DNA from: Lepidurus packardi
Taxonomy: Eukaryota; Arthropoda; Branchiopoda; Notostraca; Triopsidae
Assembly: GCA_023053545.1 (NCBI GenBank)
Contig: JAKZAN010000001.1
Span: forward strand, 3,554,565 to 3,618,564
Direction: 5' to 3'
Length of the DNA: 64,000 nt
Below are positions 42,519 through 53,706 of this stretch, in pieces (positions within the stretch are counted from its first letter, which is position 1; every line of letters starts with the position of its first letter). The translations under genes and the position numbers were made by a program. The notes below the pieces were generated by a model, which did not search any database, was not told where the DNA came from, and saw nothing but the letters and a program-made list of their open reading frames with translations.

Positions 42519-45500
42519 TTAGCCTGGATGACCATTGGACGAATCTTGCAATTTTTCCAAATTCCAATGCAGATTTGAAGCTTGGCAAACTAACGCCCAG
42601 ACATACGGGACGAAAAACTCCTCTGGATCCTCCTCCTCCACGTACCGGAACTTTAACTCGGGAAATCTCTACAAAATACACCAAGAATAATTCATACTTA
42701 CAATTCATTAAATATAACTCAACAGATACCTTTAATCTTTCTTTAGGAAAATCGGCCACGCCTTCTTGGATAAGTTGGAGGACTTCTGTAACTCCAGGAT
42801 CTTGCACGGTTTTTAACTTGAGCGCAAAGAAACTTAACGCTATTTCGATATTGACTACCACGTCTCTAAAAGACGCTTGGTCTTTGAGAACAAGCAACGA
42901 TTCTCGTTGGTACAACAACGTGTAGATTAAATGGATGTTGTAGGCAATTTGGTGCATAATGGCTGCGTTGATAATCTCCAACAACATACGAATGACTTCT
43001 TCAAAAACGGTCAAGTCTTGTCTCTAAAGAACGCGAAGAGAGAAACCAAGCAAAAATAAACGAAACAAAAAAATTCGTTAAGTAAATTAGAATAAAAAAT
43101 TTAGCAGATAATTTACCAATTCTTCTTCTGACAGTTCTACGGATTTTGTTGATTCCAGTAGACGCTTATAACGCTTAATTAGAGTGGTTGTAAGAGTGAC
43201 GAGTTTCTGGCAAACATACGGATGCAGCCGTTTGAAATGCGCTGCCATATTAGCCAAAGTTGCTAAGCAATTTGTGTGCAAGTATTTATCCTAACAGAAG
43301 AAGCGATGAAACTGAACTAAATTTTATCTTTTCAAAACAATCATAGAAATAAAATTACCTTGGCTTTAAACATGTTGAACTGAATTACTCGAACTACGAC
43401 CAGAATTAGCAATCCTCCTAGGCTAATATCTCCCAAGCTCCTTTCTGTATACCACTCTATGTTCTTAATCATCTACGTGAAGCATAAACAGTTCAAATTT
43501 AGACTTCCGATTTACCTAAGGTTATTGAGTTATTCAAAGTACAATACTTAATATATAAACAACTTTATCCTTAATATTGTTTAGGAATATTCTGATTACT
43601 TCTGCTAAAAATAGCGACACTATAGTCTAGCCTAACACGGGAAGGAAGGCTTTTAATCCCCCATCGGCGGTTGGCATTATGGTCAGAAACCTGTGACTTC
43701 TAAATAACACTCACTCACATTCACTTACAGGGAGACGCAAAACGACTAACCAACTATACAACGAATAGATTGAGCGAAGTCCAGTAGAAGAGAATGAGTA
43801 ATGCAAGCTTTTCTAACGAAATAAAATCCTATTGTTTACATTTTAACTCAAGAATATGTTTTTATAGGAATATATGCTTCATTCTCGTAAGACACAACTA
43901 TTGTGATTAGAATCCTTTACTTTTAATATAACAGCAGAAGATTCTATCATTTTTAAAGAATATTATCATGTTGTTTACATTATCACTGAAGTTTGCTTAC
44001 ATTTACGAAAGAAAACGTAAACTCAAATGAACTTACCCGCTCATGCACAGACATGTTATATGCGTCATCTTCACTCAGAAGGAGCAAGATGATTAACGAC
44101 ATATATATATGATGCGAATTGCTTTCCGTTGCCACGTAAAGCATCTTTAGAATGGGAATTACCTAAAAAAGCGAAAAGTGGTCAACTTCTACTTACGATC
44201 AAAATTAAAAGTTGAGATCAAAGTGTTCAAGTTACCAAATCTTCTGCGCTACTACGACTTTGCACAAAATACCGAAACTTCTGATGCTGGTGGAGCAAAT
44301 GATATAATAGCAAAGTCCCCCTTTCATTCCAAGGATCAGAGCACAATTTCGTGAAAAGCTTCTCGAAATCGAAGCCAAAACATCCTGCCGGATGAACTGG
44401 CGAGATTTCTAACGGACCCGCTACGAGGACAAAATGAAAAATATATTATATTTTATTGGAAAATATTCAAAAAATGACCTTTTGAGTCCGTGAAAGACAG
44501 CAATGCTTGTCTATATGGGTTAAAAAGATTCGGATCTGTGGTGCAATGATTGCTGAGGACCAACAAGAGTAAGAGAGCTTGTGGAGCTATATTCAGCTTC
44601 GTATCTTCATGTTTGGGACTTCTGGATAAAATATTCCAAATTTCAGCTAGAAAAAATTCAAAAAATCTATAAAAAAATCCTCCAAGCCCTGATATTTGAA
44701 GCAAAAGTAGCTTAGAAAGTAACTTACAAGCTAAACCTAATACAAGACTGCCTCCAACTTCGTGTTTGGGAGGAGGAGGGTTGTACACGAAATAGGTTAA
44801 TAGCGTTTTTGTGAGCAAACCTGCATGAATCGCTCCTTTACCCATCATAAGGCACCTGGGCACACAAAGGATAGCTTAAAAAAATAAACAGATGAAAAAG
44901 CCAACCTACTTGTAAATCGACGAGACATTGGCACGCTGGCCGGCTAAAGGACACGACAATAGCATTAGCAACACGTTTACCGCTTCTCTGTGCAAACTAT
45001 ACGACGAATCTCTAAAAGAAAATCGATTAAAAATTTTAAAATGAACGATCTATAGATTTTTAATCAAAGAGTTTACTGTAAAGGAACGTCTACGAGCAGT
45101 TCTACGACCCGAACGACCAGAATTTCCAGGGGACTTTGGTTGGAAAGCTCATCTTCTGTTTCTCCTGCAAGAATAAATAACTTAAGATGTCAAGTTAATT
45201 CAAAGTTGGGAATTATAGGGTTACCTTGACAAGCTAGGGGGCGAACTTTGCATTGTCTGATCAATTCTTCTTCTTTGTCGCAATGGAAATAGTGAGAGAA
45301 GGCGCAGCGGAGCAAAAATAGCGCATTGCGGCTTTGCCAAAGGAAAATGCTGCTGCAAAATGATCAGAATGATTTTCCACAAGTCAAAGGATTTGACAAC
45401 TTACTCGTTAAACTGTGCTGAGGCTTTGAGTTCAACCGAACGCATCAAAAACACGCGTAGCAAGGCACTCAGGTTGCCGGTGATGGGATTGTTTGTCCTT

Positions 45501-45775
45501 AATGCTTGGAATAACTCGGCTGTGTTCTCTAGTAGTTCCCTGTTTTCTTCACTAAAGAAATACATGTTCAGTACAACTTCAAATCATTTCAAAGAGATTA
45601 AAATCATTTATAAGGGGTTCTCAGCCAAATTGTACCTGCTTCGTGGCAAAGGACAGGAAAAGGAGAGTAACTGATTCCATATAGGGTCGTTAACCGTGAA
45701 GCCTGTTGGGCTGCAGAATTTTTGAAGGTACTCGTTAGTACCGATATCCGTAAACCAACTGCAGTTAGCTCCCAT
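42519..45775 (-). CDS. DYM: Dymeclin, Golgi-associated N-myristoylated protein
   Basis: Roughly a dozen exons. The first coding exon (45775-45636) reads [20 protein letters not shown] and [15 protein letters not shown]. It matches vertebrate dymeclin, including Gly2 for N-myristoylation. The second runs about 45551-45405. Later exons give [12 protein letters not shown] (near 44500), [21 protein letters not shown] (43281-43087), [16 protein letters not shown] and [11 protein letters not shown] (43014-42725). The last (42669-42519) gives [19 protein letters not shown] and ends GHPG. Dymeclin is needed for Golgi organisation and trafficking and is mutated in a human skeletal dysplasia. Middle exon borders were located only approximately. 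It is divergent from the MULE-fusion gene across 1.2 kb. Confidence 0.92.
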
Positions 45776-47005
45776 TTCAATTTTTCTGTTCTGAATACTG
45801 AATCTGAGCAAAACCAAAAGACACGCACGTTTTACAGTTCTACACCAAATGACAATGGGTGCCGGAATTAGCCTGGGATAAAACGTTCTAGTACAGTAAG
45901 GGGAAAATCTTCTCTTTTGAATATGCAAGCACCTGTCGTTTAAATTAAGGGAGATAATAAGAGCACTTCACGCTACCGCAACGGAAAAAGGTTTGTTTAT
46001 TTTGATGACTGCCACGAAAGCGGATGAACTGGTATCGATTATAACAATATCGATTGTAGCAGTAACAATCGTACAGGGGTATTGAAGTGGAAAACTATTT
46101 TAATTAAACAGATAATTATTATTTACAGATAATTGGTAGTTGGCAGCACTCTAATCCGTCTGCGATGTGCCCACTTTCCTACCCTGAACTAATTACAGCG
46201 TATAAAAAAAACCTGATTCATACTGCCCGTGTGCCGATCGGATAAATCAAGGGATAAACTTTCAACACAAATTTTTTTCATTGCAGATGGCTTAATAAAC
46301 AAAGAGCAATTCTTTCTCAAAAGAACTCAAAATTACTGCCAAAGCTCTCCCTGCTATATTTTCCTTTGTTAAAAATGCTCTAATAATTACTTATATGGAA
46401 AAAGGGCCATTTTATAATTCTTATAAATGAACTGAAAGTTAAAAGTCCTTAATTATAATGCATGTGATTGTCGATAAATTCTATTACATAATAATAGAGA
46501 CTACCAAAGAGCAGATGCTCACGTTGGTTTTTAAATTAAAAAAATGGTAGTTAGAATGGTAGAATGGTTAAAATGGTAGTTAAATAGTAGTTAGAAAAAA
46601 TGGTAGGTAGAATTGTCCTAAATTCGCATACTTACATTCCATTAATTTAATGAAATGAGGGTGTCCATAAAACGCGGAATGCGAAACATGAATGGTAAAA
46701 CGCGAAATTATCATGCGAAACCGCGCGAACAAAATCCCGTTAAATGTGGTAAAATTTAAATTATAGGTTGGAGAAATTCTAGGTTAAATTTAAACCAATA
46801 CTGAAAAAACACGAGAAATTATAAAAAGTTCCCATTTCGCCTTCCGCGGATCGCATTTTGCCTACACCCGTGGTTAACAGAAGCGTGCAGGCGGGACCAA
46901 GCGCTAAAGCGAAATACAAACAAACCGTGCAAAGCGTGTATCAGTTTTATTTCGCAGTTTAGTTTCGCTCGGATTTTAAATTCGGAGTTATTTTGTGTAC
47001 CCACA
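45776..47005. promoter_or_regulatory. Shared 5' region of dymeclin and the MULE-fusion gene, with paired DRE-like boxes
   Basis: Two TATCGATT boxes lie at 46033-46040 and 46048-46055, 15 bp apart start to start, about 260 bp upstream of dymeclin. The arrangement mirrors the paired TATCGATA boxes at 5801-5825. A short degenerate tandem of ATGGTAGTTAGA occurs at 46543-46611, and repeats of the form AAACGCGGAA/AAACGCGAAA occur near 46668-46710. No other coding exon is apparent. Confidence 0.45.
46543..46611. repeat. Degenerate minisatellite, unit ATGGTAGTTAGA
   Basis: ATGGTAG recurs about five times with TTAGA or TTAAA spacers over 69 bp. Units vary in length, so it is old or slipping. Confidence 0.6.
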
Positions 47006-50000
47006 ATGAGAGGAACTGATGCTTTTTTCACAGCAGAGAAAGGATTTGAACTGTTAGGAGCTGCTACTCGGGGCAAGACAACACCTAAACGGGAAAAGAG
47101 TAAATTTAGTTCGCAACTAAACTCAGTACGTGATGTACCTATAGTTTTGCCGGAAGGAGGATTCTGGTACATTTATACTGGAGTTGACCGGAAAAAAGAT
47201 GGTAATATTTCCTCCTTTTCTATCGCTTGTGTACTTACTAATAACGCGATTAATCATAATTTCTTTAATCCTTAAGAAAACCAAGCTTAAGGTTTCCCAC
47301 TCCAAAATTAAATTACATTTTCTTGAGACAAGTCTAATGAAATTACTATTTCGCGCATGGTAATATTTGACACTAAACTGAAATTAGACCTTCGGACTTT
47401 CCCCACCAACAAAGTGTCTGGTGGAAAGGTGTCCATTTTCCTTTTAATATTATGAATTAGTGATTTGAAAGGTTTTTAACGAGTAAAACACTGAACATGC
47501 AATTCTCAGATTGGAGGGTAGATGGCTACCGTTGGCGACAGGGCGGTGGAAAAAAACTGGATATTAAATCCGCCACGATTCAAACGCGTTACTTCCATGT
47601 TTTTGACAAATCTGGCAAACCGAATCCAGAGTTTCGTCGTTGTGCATACATGAGAAGCGACAAGCCCAACCACGTACTTGTCCAGTATTTGGGCGACGCT
47701 TCCGTCGCAGCACAACTCCTCAATGGCAAGCCTAGGCGTAAATCTGCCGTTCCAAAACCGTTGGACGACGTGGACGCGCCCCTTTACCCTCAAGCCACAC
47801 CCCGCTATTTAAATGTCAGCACTGTGGAAACTGCGCAAAAGAATGCGCGCGCGAAACTCCAGCTGCCCGTGGACGCTTTCATCAATATACACAACACAAT
47901 GCAAGATTTGGAGTTCGTAAATTACCTTGGATTCAGTAAAGCAAATAAAGTCGAAAATGCGAAAGACCAAACCTCTACTGTCATCGCCATTGCACACTTA
48001 CCAGCTCTGGCGGACATTTTCAAAGAAATAGCGTCAAACCCAAAGCTGACCTCACCATGTTTGTCATTTGATACGAGCTTGGACTTGGGATCATTCTACC
48101 TTTCCATTTTGCTCTTTCGAGAGAATGAATTTACCACAAAACCAGACATACCGCTCGTCTACATGGTCCATGACCGGAAATGCAGTCTGAGCTACTCATA
48201 TTTTTGGCTGGAAATAAACCGTCTTTTCCCCTTCTTGAATGAGAAAGATCTCAACCATTACATTGTCATGGATCGGAAGGAGGTGGTCTGCAAAGCCCTT
48301 AAGAATATCTTACCCAACTGCCAAGGGTTCTATCGCTGGCCTCACATCTTCCGTCAAGTGAATCGGAAGCTTAAGGAACTGAAGATCACCAAAAGCGAAG
48401 ACAATGTCTACATCGACAGCCTCTGGCGCCTGTTTTCGAGTAAAAGTATTAAAGAGTACAACCTGCGCATTGATGAGGTAGTGAAGCGATGGAGCAAAAC
48501 GTTTAGAGACTATTATACCGAGAGTATCCATCCGGATTTGGAACAAATCGGACGATGGGTCATGATGACAAAGGGTGTGGACTCCACGACCATCAACCGC
48601 CCTCAGGCTTTAGACGAAGTTGTCCGGCAACTCCAGGAATGGGAAGACGTACCGGTTGATCGAGCCCTAGTAGTCCTGTATCGGTTATCCGAATACTTTT
48701 TGGTGGAAATCAAGAGAGGGCGGTATGGTTTGGGCAATTATAAACTAATTCCTTCGGAATCGGCCAAATATGAACAAGAAGCTTTTCTCTTTGAACCAGC
48801 CCCTAATGTCTCAGCAATTGTGGAGAACGTCAGGAACGGCATTAAAGTAAAAAACAAAACTAAATACCAAAAAATTACGATACTTTGGACTTGAAATTGA
48901 TCTTAATTTTCAAACTGTAATCGACTTGACAATGATTTCGTCGATTTAATCTATTGCAGAAAGTTGCAAAGAATTGCAGTACAGTAGTACCCCGAAGTTA
49001 CGCGACAGGTGAGACCGATGGAAAACGCCTAAGTCGGGGTACACTGACGTAACCTCGTAACTCCGAGTTCGAGTAAGTCGGGGTATTACTGTACTGTATA
49101 TTGCAGATATTGACGCAGTTAAACATTGAATGAAGCGATATAATGTGGGGGTTGAGATCGATTTCAGCTTCTAGTATTGTAATCGATTCAAAAGTACTTT
49201 GTTCGCTTTAATATAAAAAGTAAGTTTTTTGTTTTAAACTCAATTTTCCATTTTCTTTTTCAGGATCACGTTCTTCAAATAGCTAATGACAAAGAAAAGG
49301 CAATTACTGCGTACGATCGAGCGGTACATTTCGTGGAGCAAGGATTGATAAGTATCGATTGCAAAACGCGAACTTTCGTTATTCGCGATAAGGAAAAAGT
49401 CCGGGTCGTTACGCTGTTTCCTACAGTTACTTGTTCCTGCTATGGTAACGATTTTTTAAAATTTTACTTGATATTAACATCTATATTTAGTGCTATATAA
49501 TGTCTATGCAAAATTTTAGAATTTTGTGTCTACCTTTTTTTTAAGTTTAATTATACCAGCGTAGGCTTTCGCCTATTGCTGGAATCATATATTCATGTCG
49601 CAAAAATATGTCACACGACTAGAGATTGTTAAAGGGTACTACTTTCGCATTACCCTTTAACGTAGGACAGCGAGTAAAGGGGTGGAGGGCAGAGAACAAG
49701 TGGGTTGGGGGTAGGACAGGGGACAAAGGGGTGGAAGGGGACACATGACAAGGGGGTGTGCCTTGATATTGGTACCTCCTCGGGCCATTTGTCCCAGTAT
49801 CTTGAAGCATAGTGCCATAGCACTAAACTCTCAAGGTATAAATCTAATGGTGGTAGGCCCGATTCCACTTCCAAAGCTACAGACGGGGTTGTTTTGAGGG
49901 CGCCTGTTATTGCTAACAGGCCCTTTCTATACAGTTGGGTAATGGGTAGTAGCTTAGCCGAGGAGATGTTGCAACACGCGGAGAAAGCGTAGCTTAGTTT

Positions 50001-51150
50001 TGAGAGGACCGTAGTCTGGAAAAGAATACGGACCTGACAGCAAGTGACTGTGTGTCTGCTTTTTTCTGGAGTTAATTAAAACTTATTATTTTTTTTGGGG
50101 GGTGTTTAAGGCACGGGAAAGTGTCCCCATATTCTGGCAGCCAAAATAACCATCGGAATATCGTGTGAACCGAAGAAACAACCAGGAGAGGATGATTATT
50201 GCCACGGAAATCGCCCAAACGAATTTTTTAGAAGGGGGATGGGATCTAAGAGACCGATTGTGCATGATCTAGATGAGTCAGTCGAAGTCAGCGCTCTTAA
50301 ACTACGTCGTCTAGAGTCGGGTGGCTCGGTATTCCCAGCAAGTTGTAGGGTTGATAAGTCAGCGAGACCAAATTCTTCGGCAAACAAACAATACTTCAAT
50401 CGTCGAAAGCTTTTGTCCACTGTAATAGACAGGTAGGGGGCTTTTTTTATTATTATTAGTCATACTTGTGATTAAAATGTTTTTCATCTGGTCTGTTTTA
50501 GTGAAAATGAAGTACCAGACTCCATCTTGGATTCGAGTAAAGCTTCTGTTTGGGTCCAGTACAAGGAATTAAGCCTCACTTTGGGAGCAAAAGAACGAAT
50601 TTCCAACGGTCAGAAGCTTTGTAATGAAGAGATCTATTTTGCCATGCAATTAATTAAAGAAAACTCGGAATATCTCTATGGGTTCCAAGACGTTGGTCAA
50701 ACGTTTCAAGCAGTACCGGACGGGAAACGCTTCGTGCAAATTCTCCATCTGGAGTCAGATCGTTGGATTTGTATTGCAAATACGCTTATGAGTTCTACAA
50801 ATATCGTTGTTTGCGATAGTTTTAACCCAAATGGGAAACCAACTCAAGAAGTAGCTACGTTGATCATGGCGCTGCTCCGAGGCTGGAAGCTGGGCAAGAA
50901 CAATATACTCCAGATCAAATACCTGCCTGTTGTCAAACAAAAGAATGAGTCGGAGGATGGATTGATTGCTATTGCCTGTGCAGAAATGCTATCGCGGGAT
51001 GTTGATCCCTCCAACTGCATTTTCCAGGATTTGCCAACGCACTTGATGGCGTGTTTCCAGAAGAAACCAACGAATATGACTGAATTTCCTCATTTTAAGC
51101 TGGTGGAACAGGATATAGTTATATCAATGCCTGAAATCCCAGACCTTTGA
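47006..51150 (+). CDS. Domesticated MULE transposase-SWIM-Ulp1-like fusion protein
   Basis: Five exons join in phase to 894 residues: 47006-47201, 47510-48846, 49264-49444, 50111-50432 and 50502-51150 (TGA). Residues about 45-125 are the basic DNA-binding-type module seen at the start of animal MULE proteins (WYIYTGVDRKKD, DWRVDGYRWRQGGGKKL, RRCAY, HVLVQYLGD). Residues about 240-470 are a MULE RNase H-fold transposase with FDTSLDLG (Asp253), VMDRKEVVCKAL (Asp320) and INRPQALDE, where the expected catalytic Glu appears as Gln431. A SWIM finger follows, C568-x-C-x5-C576-x-H578, split by intron 3. The last 200 residues resemble a Ulp1/SENP-type peptidase. There the His-Trp is Arg766-Trp, the Asp is kept (Asp784) and the Cys before Gly is Asp831. 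No terminal inverted repeats were found. I infer a host gene derived from a transposon, probably without cut-and-paste or protease activity. Confidence 0.8.
48982..49091. mobile_element. Pogo/Tigger-like MITE (110 bp) inside intron 2 of the MULE-fusion gene
   Basis: The left end CAGTAGTACCCCGAAGTTACGCG and the right end, reverse-complemented CAGTAATACCCCGACTTACTCG, form terminal inverted repeats (shown in parts: CAGTAGTACCCCGA and CAGTAATACCCCGA). The element is flanked by TA on both sides (48980-48981 and 49092-49093), the target duplication of Tc1/mariner/pogo elements. There is no coding capacity. Confidence 0.7.
49640..49780. repeat. Purine-rich degenerate repeat in intron 3
   Basis: AGGGGTGGA/GGGACA-type words recur (for example GTAGGACAG, AAAGGGGTGGA twice), giving strongly G-rich top-strand sequence within the intron that splits the SWIM finger. 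Confidence 0.4.
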
Positions 51151-52041
51151 ATTATTACCTAATCTCTCCGTAATTTTTGTTAGTGGCATTCCAGTGTTTC
51201 GAATTGACCTTTAGCACGAATACGTGGCATGTCTGACAAATTTAAATGTTCTTAATATATTTTTTTTTATTTTCAATCAGATAATAGCTATGTTAAAAAA
51301 ACTCCTGGTAGAAAACAAAATAAAAAAACATTTGAATTTCGACCACCTGCTCCAAATCTTACCCCTAGAGGTACTGCACTGTTAGTAGCGCTAACAGTAG
51401 GCTATACTTTGTCTGATTACTATTTGATAAAGCTTGGCTGCAACTAGTTCCGTTTTTCTGTTAGCATGGTGGATAAAACAAACTGCCAAACACGCTCTCT
51501 GATTGGCTTAGACTGTTTGGCTATCCTCCCCCTTCAATTTTACTTGCATTTTACTTCCAGGCATTTTAACAATTCGAACCCTATAATCGATTTTTAACCG
51601 ACTTAAAAAATTACTATAAGACTAGATTAGTTTAGCTTCTGCTTTTAGTGCTTTATTTGTTCTGCCTCGCCCACATGAATCCAAAGCTCCTATTTCGACG
51701 TAAACTTATGCTAACCATAGTTTGTTCCCTAATCATTGATATGCGTTCAACGTTCAATCACGCGCTCCGATGCAGAGTATGGGCACGTGTTTAAACCTAC
51801 GATTGAATATCATTAGCCTATTTTTCTTTCAACTACCCTCGGAAATTTATCTCATAATTAGCTAGACAATAAACTCTAGTTTTATGACTTGAGCTGAGCA
51901 TTTTCCTTTCTCCTAGGATGTAAATCAGGCAACTGAGACCAAAGAGGCGTGGCTTTTCAGCTGTCTGTGAAAACCCAAAACAAGAAGACAAAAAAGAATA
52001 CATACAAACAAAAAGTCCCGTGACCTGGACAGCTCTACAGA
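51151..52041. other. Intergenic region between the MULE-fusion and LysM genes
   Basis: About 890 bp, AT-rich, with no supported gene. It should contain the 3' UTR of the fusion gene and the LysM gene promoter. Confidence 0.4.
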
Positions 52042-53706
52042 ATGAGCCAACCGGTAAAAGTCTCTAGTCCAGAATTGGACGAAAAGGCCAGTATCTCTTT
52101 TCTAACAGGAACCAAGTCAGTCCGCAAATACGGTAGCACAGCACAACATCAGCCAACAACAATGAAGGCTTTCGGTCGTGTAATAGAACACAAAGTTCAG
52201 CCTCACGACACTTTACAAGGCCTTGCCTTACGCTACGAAACCACAGTAACATTAAAATATCCCCAAATTTACTATTTTAAGACTTTGCAAGCGTTATATC
52301 TTTTCCTTGATTAACAGATGGAGCATATCAAACGATTCAATCGCTTGTGGACCAACGACAGCTTATTTTTGAGAGAATCCCTGAAGATTCCTGTCTCTGA
52401 AGACTTCCGAGACAAAGAAGCCAACTTCCGTTCCATTATTCCTTCTACTTCACAAGAATCACCTACGCACATCGCCAATCACAATTCGTCCATTGTGGAA
52501 GGCTGCGATAATTCCTTATCCAGCCAAAATACCATCATGGGAACAGATAGGAATCTAGAAGACTTTCTGGGACGTATGGATTCTAGCATAGAACAAGGGA
52601 AATTAACGGCCGAAAAGCTGCAAGACAGTAGGTATAGTTAAGAAGTAAAATTTCCCCTCATCAAAGTAATTATTAATCCAATATTTATAAATTAGAACTC
52701 GTTTTTTGGAGTTTCTTATTTCAAAGCTGCCCAAGATTCAACTGTGTTTCTATAGTTTAAGTTTATTTTGTTTCGGAATTTATTTTGCTTGTGTTGTTTT
52801 TTCATTATCAAATTTGGAGGCTTTATGATTTGTAATTGATCTACAGTCTATTATAAAGTTTACGCAAGCTTAGTCGCATAATTTCTAGCATAATTGGAAC
52901 TTAAGCAAACTAATTTTATTCTGTAAATGAAATAGTGCTAGTGGTGTCGGTTAAGTTACACGAGACGATTGTACCAAAATTAGAATCAACTTCCGAATCA
53001 AAGAAAACGTAGCCCGTTCATTTCTCCAATGTTATTTTTCGTACTGTTTTGTGTCATAAGGAACAAAATTTACTAAATTTATTTAGCAAACTCTTTAATT
53101 AAGCTTAAAATTGATCTGCAAAGGGACATTATTTGACCTCAAGATCGACCGATTGCACTTAATGTATGGATTTGATGATAAAAAAAAACCACATATCGAT
53201 TTTGGAAGGCTTGGAATCGTCTATCATAAATTGTCTGGATTCGATTGGGCAAAGACCTAGTACAGCGATCACCGTTTACTAAACGGCCTATTTCTGCGTT
53301 CAATTGTAATGTGAACTATTTCTTACAGAATGTAATCCTCGATTCGATCAAAAGTTTAAAAACTAATATCTACGACTTTACTTTATCTAAAATTACCTTA
53401 AACTATGTAAAAAGGCCCTTAAACCAATTTAACCTGAAGTAAACTTTGACCTAATTTCTGTTCTTTTTTTATTTTTCAAGTTTAATTTTGAAGCATCCAG
53501 CGTTCGGAGACGCATATTCCAACGTTCGTTTACGCCGTTCTCAGTCTTCGCGATTAAAATCCCATTCGAGCGCTCACGATTCATGTCAAACTACCGAATT
53601 TGGCCCACCCTCCAACAGTGAACCTTACGTCGCCACCACTGGGAAGAAAGTGTGGTCCTCTTTGCAAAGATTAGAGCAAACGCAAGACGAAATGTTCGAA
53701 CTTTGA
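52042..53706 (+). CDS. LysM domain-containing protein, LYSMD1/2 type
   Basis: Three exons (52042-52245, 52318-52631, 53481-53706) join in phase to 247 residues. The LysM domain spans the first intron: EHKVQPHDTLQGLALRYETT, then MEHIKRFNRLWTNDSLFLRE and SLKIPV. An LEDFLGRMDSSIEQGKLTAEKL helix (in parts LEDFLGRMDSSI and EQGKLTAEKL) matches the conserved helix after LysM in LYSMD1/2. The tail is Ser/Arg-rich. There is no signal peptide or membrane segment, so it is the soluble intracellular subtype, not the LYSMD3/4 membrane type. Its molecular role is poorly known even in model animals. The second intron is long (849 bp) and holds no gene. Confidence 0.88.

Follow-up and report, generated by a model that had tools for sequence, protein, structure and literature searches.

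A putative domesticated Mutator-like transposase gene with CG-1-like and altered Ulp1-like domains in Lepidurus packardi

A five-exon gene was studied in a 64,000-nucleotide stretch of Lepidurus packardi DNA (GenBank assembly GCA_023053545.1, contig JAKZAN010000001.1, positions 3,554,565 to 3,618,564 of the forward strand). This whole stretch is called the window, and positions are given in its numbering. Judging from its sequence, the gene is probably a host gene derived from the transposase of a Ulp1-bearing Mutator-like element (MULE), and its product would be a chromatin protein that binds DNA and perhaps SUMO. A domesticated MULE gene had been proposed earlier from the letters of the window and their open frames (here, the sequence-only reading), and this proposal was supported in part: the single copy, the order of the domains and the loss of the peptidase residues held, while domestication itself appears likely rather than observed. 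What was observed is anatomy only; binding and function we infer.

The exons have GT-AG borders and a consistent phase, and they join into an open frame of 894 residues on the plus strand at 47006-51150, as the sequence-only reading had claimed. They are as follows.

47006..47201, plus strand: exon 1, residues 1-65, with the start of the CG-1-like domain; GT-AG borders, open frame and best host-codon frame.
47510..48846, plus strand: exon 2, residues 66-511, with the remainder of the CG-1-like domain and the MULE core; inside a 476-codon open frame.
49264..49444, plus strand: exon 3, residues 512-571, with SWIM ligands C568 and C570; splice borders and host-codon frame.
50111..50432, plus strand: exon 4, residues 572-678, with SWIM ligands C576 and H578; splice borders and host-codon frame.
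50502..51150, plus strand: exon 5, residues 679-894 and the stop codon, with the Ulp1-like domain; splice borders and host-codon frame.

The gene model is more than chance, as judged by simulated frames and host-codon scores. The stop-to-stop frame around exon 2 has 476 codons, compared to a longest frame of 426 codons in 200 simulated 64-kb sequences with the composition of exon 2, and the true frame ranked top by host-codon score in all five exons. The G+C content is 45% in the coding sequence and 29-42% in the introns. A stop in frame lies upstream of the ATG, an A is found at position -3, and an AATAAA starts 169 bases past the stop codon. With splice-site filters applied, exon 3 has two alternative acceptors (ending at 49224 or 49299) that likewise keep the frame and give 907 and 882 residues. 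Contamination was rejected as a source of the gene, which has host-like neighbours (such as Dymeclin and a DnaJ) on a 14-Mb contig and whose introns hold copies of a long interspersed element (LINE) common to other contigs.

Four regions resembling known domains were placed on the protein. The order proposed earlier, MULE transposase followed by SWIM finger and Ulp1-like domain, was borne out by profile matches, mostly weak, with a CG-1-like domain in front. All ten residues named in the sequence-only reading (D253, D320, Q431, C568, C570, C576, H578, R766, D784 and D831) were located as claimed.

47123..47691, plus strand: CG-1-like domain, residues 40-126, split by intron 1; matched by Pfam PF03859 and a host CAMTA profile.
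48046..48606, plus strand: MULE RNase H region, with D253, D320, H344, W415 (by spacing) and Q431 probably replacing Glu.
49432..50130, plus strand: SWIM finger, C568-x-C570-x5-C576-x-H578, split by intron 3.
50683..51075, plus strand: Ulp1-like domain, with R766 for His, D784 and Q825 kept, and D831 for Cys.

The strongest of these matches is at the N-terminus. An old N-terminal DNA-binding module had been proposed, and one is present there, but its nature had been missed: the match to PF03859 marks it as CG-1-like. CG-1 is the DNA-binding domain of CAMTA factors. Residues 1-183 matched PF03859 with an E-value of 3.7e-5 (23.9 bits), which was the only Pfam match above its curated cut-off (23.5 bits); on the whole protein the match fell under that cut-off (E 5.5e-4, 20.1 bits). 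A single-sequence profile of host CAMTA scored 8.6 bits on residues 1-183, a value equalled by none of 1000 shuffles (maximum 8.2), and dropped to 5.8 bits over the whole protein. A separate host gene with a strong CG-1 is found on contig C6. No TIG, ankyrin or IQ match was found in the protein with Pfam up to an E-value of 10, where the HMMER filters discard most very weak matches. A sequence search of the Protein Data Bank gave no match with the whole protein; the 26 matches obtained with residues 1-183 (best E 0.25) were taken as chance. In the part of the results viewed from an open-access literature library, CG-1 was not found in a transposon, transposase or MULE, and the terms CG-1 and Ulp1 are absent from the main text of a MULE survey (PMC6446971).

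At the other end of the protein, a profile built from seven Ulp1 sequences scored 9.7 bits on the domain, while the maximum of 1000 shuffles was 9.3 and the reversed domain scored 0.5. The score on the whole protein was 6.9 bits, and Pfam gave no Ulp1 match in the protein. R766, D784, Q825 and D831 fell on the His, Asp, Gln and Cys of Ulp1 sequences in all three MAFFT modes, which agrees with the earlier claim that the peptidase His and Cys are lost (Arg766, Asp831) and Asp784 is kept. If the domain is indeed Ulp1-like, it would be a peptidase without its defining His and Cys residues.

The SWIM finger between these regions has the complete pattern CxCx(n)CxH, with C568, C570, C576 and H578 as ligands. 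Its Pfam match (PF04434, E 0.012, 15.6 bits) is under the cut-off of 19.6, and the ligand columns were consistent in two of the three MAFFT modes. CxC...CxH SWIM-like motifs were also discernible in several MULEs of the same genome.

The transposase core matched Pfam PF10551 with an E-value of 0.069 and 14 bits, under the cut-off of 27.6. A profile of own-genome MULEs gave 3.1 bits, equalled by 18 of 1000 shuffles, and 1.3 bits on the whole protein. D253, D320 and H344 stood on the Asp, Asp and His columns of own-genome MULEs in all three MAFFT modes. D, D, E, H and W are required in the mosquito MULE Muta1, where Ala at any of D, D and E abolishes transposition, according to the consulted part of PMC5225508. 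Going by the same part of that source, the D-D spacing of 67 compares to 69 in Muta1 (60-62 in four own-genome MULEs, one of which has E printed at the second position), the D-H spacing of 24 is equal to that of Muta1, and W415 to Q431 is 16 compared to 18 for W401 to E419.

The sequence-only reading had taken Gln431 to be the third transposase residue. The residue is present, while its match to the catalytic Glu is weak: Q431 occupied the Glu column of own-genome MULEs in one of the three MAFFT modes, and the other two placed a gap there. The Asn preceding the site favours Q431 by comparison with the TN-x-x-x-E motifs of own-genome MULEs, the exact third-acidic-residue motif of animal MULEs being drawn from general background. 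A point on the opposite side is E435, four residues past Q431, which could be the third acidic residue. Spacing alone is indecisive here because E435 is 115 residues downstream of D320, and the four own-genome MULEs have a spacing of 115-122. We consider the transposase to be probably dead, as read from these alignments.

Several further results weigh against a MULE and Ulp1 ancestry. The MULE, SWIM and Ulp1 matches are weak, and weaker yet when scored on the whole protein. The column assigned to R766 rests on MAFFT, which aligns any input, because the Ulp1 profile alignment spans D784, Q825 and D831 and begins past Arg766. In hhalign, which was run with single sequences against small own-made profiles and did not reliably separate real from shuffled sequences, the Ulp1 score was equalled by 9 of 200 shuffles and was not significant; in a separate run, the top-scoring shuffle beat the real sequence for both profiles (100 shuffles for MULE, 200 for Ulp1). 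One earlier hhalign run in another mode placed the real score above all 20 shuffles. AlphaFold models made without an alignment had a mean predicted local distance difference test (pLDDT) score of 38.7 for residues 185-511 and 35.3 for exon 5, and nothing was drawn from them. Foldseek with these low-pLDDT models listed 50 matches for each, among which no SENP or RNase H entry was seen.

One explanation for such results is that this is a host gene whose resemblance to MULEs and Ulp1 is due to chance or is very ancient, for example an offshoot of CAMTA whose C-terminal parts are unrelated. This seems improbable to us. Only CG-1 passed a curated cut-off, the folds were not predictable at such low pLDDT, and hhalign gave no confirmation of MULE or Ulp1, all of which would suit this idea; yet no TIG, ankyrin or IQ match accompanies the CG-1-like domain, the three weak matches follow the domain order of Ulp1-bearing MULEs, and the D, D, H and Ulp1 tetrad columns align in all three modes.

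Copy number was examined next to mobility. As protein queries, exons 2 and 5 matched only themselves in the 108.56-Mb genome (E up to 0.001), and these were the two exons covered at the protein level. At the DNA level, scoring covered 40 of 54 candidates, which makes the repeat counts lower bounds; the whole gene as query returned itself and at least 56 other matches. All of these were intronic (at least nine in intron 2 and at least 47 in intron 3), and none fell in the exons, though these make up 2685 of the 4145 bases. The repeats in the introns are as follows.

48979..49100, no strand assigned: dispersed repeat in intron 2, from the whole-gene DNA search.
49522..49740, no strand assigned: further dispersed repeats in intron 3, from the whole-gene DNA search.
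49781..50048, minus strand: LINE reverse transcriptase fragment in intron 3, used as a clock; about 90% identical, ungapped, to nine copies.

The gene is single copy as far as searched. This agrees with the sequence-only reading, which had named many near-identical copies with terminal inverted repeats as the finding that would speak against it; neither copies (by the exon 2 and exon 5 proteins, and by DNA outside the intronic repeats) nor outstanding repeats were found. The longest inverted pairs spanning the gene within 45200-53000 were 33 nt at 73% and 31 nt at 77%, and three of three control regions of the window had inverted pairs of 31-37 nt, so no terminal inverted repeats stood out in that interval. 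For a target duplication, which in mobile MULEs has 8-10 bp, 21 shared 9-base flanks were found, none with matching ends (best 5 of 12 end bases).

These data bear on the idea that the gene is a working low-copy transposon, with E435 as its third acidic residue and the Ulp1-like domain serving a structural role only. D253, D320 and H344 are kept, as is W415 by spacing, and the distance of E435 from D320 is within the own-genome range. A single copy, terminal inverted repeats no better than those of controls and 21 direct repeats of nine bases with poorly matching ends are not what such an element should show, and we regard this explanation as very improbable.

Other MULEs are present in the genome, with 63 PF10551 matches. 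Close kinship of the gene with them was rejected, as the best tblastn E-value against 23 MULE loci (8 and 15, some overlapping) was 1.0. Of five frames scanned from four of these loci, one had a PHD finger and the other four combined C2H2 fingers with a MULE core. Three loci (L031, L033 and L035) have long open MULE frames of 1206-1432 residues, belong to families with many PF10551 matches and are possibly active; L031 and L035, the two that were scanned, have C2H2 fingers and a MULE core. At another locus, L028, a MULE match is accompanied by long tandem coding-like repeats, with GSLI, SDRV and ETRL units that fall in different frames.

Selection on the frame was assessed with the LINE fragment of intron 3 as a clock. 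Over 268 bases, the fragment shows 27 or 28 differences and no gaps relative to nine near-identical copies, which were the ones compared out of at least 17 full-length matches. In neutral-decay simulations with substitutions only, the frame stayed free of stops in 10 of 2000 genes at 5% change and in none of 2000 at 10%. The 27 differences from one copy fall as 5, 4 and 18 at codon positions 1, 2 and 3, and positions 1 and 2 together give 9/178, or about 5%. The clock favours selection on the frame, though it is soft and no proof, and the earlier view that selection has probably kept the frame looks right on this intronic measure.

Against selection, part of the LINE differences are probably older than the insertion because 18 of the 27 are at third codon positions, and at 2% neutral change 253 of 2000 simulated genes stay free of stops. 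Relatives of the gene were not found in the viral-contig and genome-contig collections scanned. Two candidates were considered there: a viral-contig stretch matching the pattern was not confirmed as a relative, and a genome-contig stretch in a bacterial contig was rejected, with a best tblastn E-value of 0.42 and no meaningful similarity.

The gene could instead be the last relic of a decaying Ulp1-bearing MULE family, with its frame intact by chance and the catalytic changes as early damage. We consider this unlikely, although it is the most serious of the alternatives. No relatives show constraint, the catalytic residues are altered, and a soft clock permits a change as low as the 2% at which those 253 frames survive. 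A relic would not be expected, however, to keep 894 codons and the SWIM ligands intact across five exons while its catalytic residues are altered, to have its repeat matches confined to introns, or to have left no other family fragment that the exon 2 and exon 5 proteins or the gene DNA could find.

If the gene is a domesticated MULE, its protein might work as follows. Transposition would have been lost with the change of the third acidic residue to Gln431, and the transposase core may have turned to DNA bending or dimer formation. The CG-1-like domain and the SWIM finger may still bind specific DNA, either old element ends or CAMTA-like CG-rich sites. The dead Ulp1-like fold would not cleave SUMO or ubiquitin-like proteins, and may still dock them. 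The whole would act on chromatin as a sequence-specific factor, reading or shielding SUMO. The catalytic His and Cys positions touch in Ulp1 enzymes. The changes of His to Arg and Cys to Asp put opposite charges at these touching positions, and therefore a salt bridge could take the place of the catalytic ion pair and preserve the fold.

A bolder extension, possible but tentative, is that CG-1, beyond its place in CAMTA, also formed the DNA-binding end of a Mutator-like transposase lineage, as part of a pool common to transposons and transcription factors like WRKY-GCM1 and FLYWCH. The gene would then be a domesticated survivor from which both catalytic sites were removed, with the Arg/Asp charge swap keeping a SUMO-docking fold. 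If true, one gene would allow DNA recognition to be studied together with a dead transposase and a dead protease of SUMO type, and the CG-1 of the conserved CAMTA factors would be tied to transposons. Such a link would make the origin of CG-1 testable through animal MULEs.

Some observations on the assembly are reported in their own right. Its six contigs C1-C6 have lengths of 10.7-14.0 Mb. Among the COX1-like stretches listed, 37 of 41 have an in-frame TGA (on C1, C2, C4, C5, C6, C21 and C38), which points to numerous nuclear copies of mitochondrial DNA; one nuclear COX1 copy has TGA for Trp and is arthropod-like by eye. A small contig (C52) has an intact, bacterial-looking COX1 (L051), and bacterial sequence seems to be in the assembly. 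Four Ulp1-like stretches (L013, L014, L015 and L020, on the small contigs C172, C202, C246 and C319) have TAA and TAG in frame, codons that certain ciliates translate as Gln, and possibly belong to contaminant or symbiont contigs. Downstream of the gene, window positions 52045-52460 have a translation that we take to resemble a LysM-domain protein; its second half had no Pfam match (the first half was not scanned).

Compared to CAMTA factors, the gene has CG-1 in common and is without a TIG, ankyrin or IQ match. ZSWIM1 and ZSWIM3 are vertebrate host proteins with an RNase H-like plus SWIM architecture. They offer this architecture in an animal host gene, as here; their Pfam family PF21056 gave sub-threshold matches in three own-genome MULE frames and no match in this protein. 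Plant FHY3/FAR1-type proteins have a SWIM finger and an N-terminal DNA-binding module of FAR1 type. Factors of this type resemble the gene as MULE transposases turned into putative DNA-binding factors, and 23 of them, MULE-derived and FHY3-type, are reported from animals in the part of PMC10027918 consulted. The gene differs in its CG-1-like N-terminus and the extra dead Ulp1-like domain. An animal single-gene version had been called noteworthy; MULE-derived animal transcription factors were already on record in that source, while CG-1 on one of them was not found in the literature searched.

The consulted part of PMC2836005 describes Ulp1 domains in Mutator (MuDR-type) elements of hydra, lancelet and plants, so to treat Ulp1-bearing MULEs as a plant matter, as had been done, was an overstatement. 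These Mutators share with the gene a MULE transposase and an Ulp1 domain. In contrast to them, the gene is single copy, has no outstanding terminal repeats, has its peptidase His and Cys replaced and carries a CG-1-like N-terminus, a domain unmentioned in that part of PMC2836005. Muta1, by the consulted part of PMC5225508, resembles the gene in the layout and spacing of D, D, H and W, with Q431 probably at the place of its Glu; unlike the gene, it is an active element whose triad works and which has a FLYWCH finger. Animal Mutators with Ulp1 and animal factors derived from MULEs are already published, and a CG-1 match on such a protein was not found in the literature searched.

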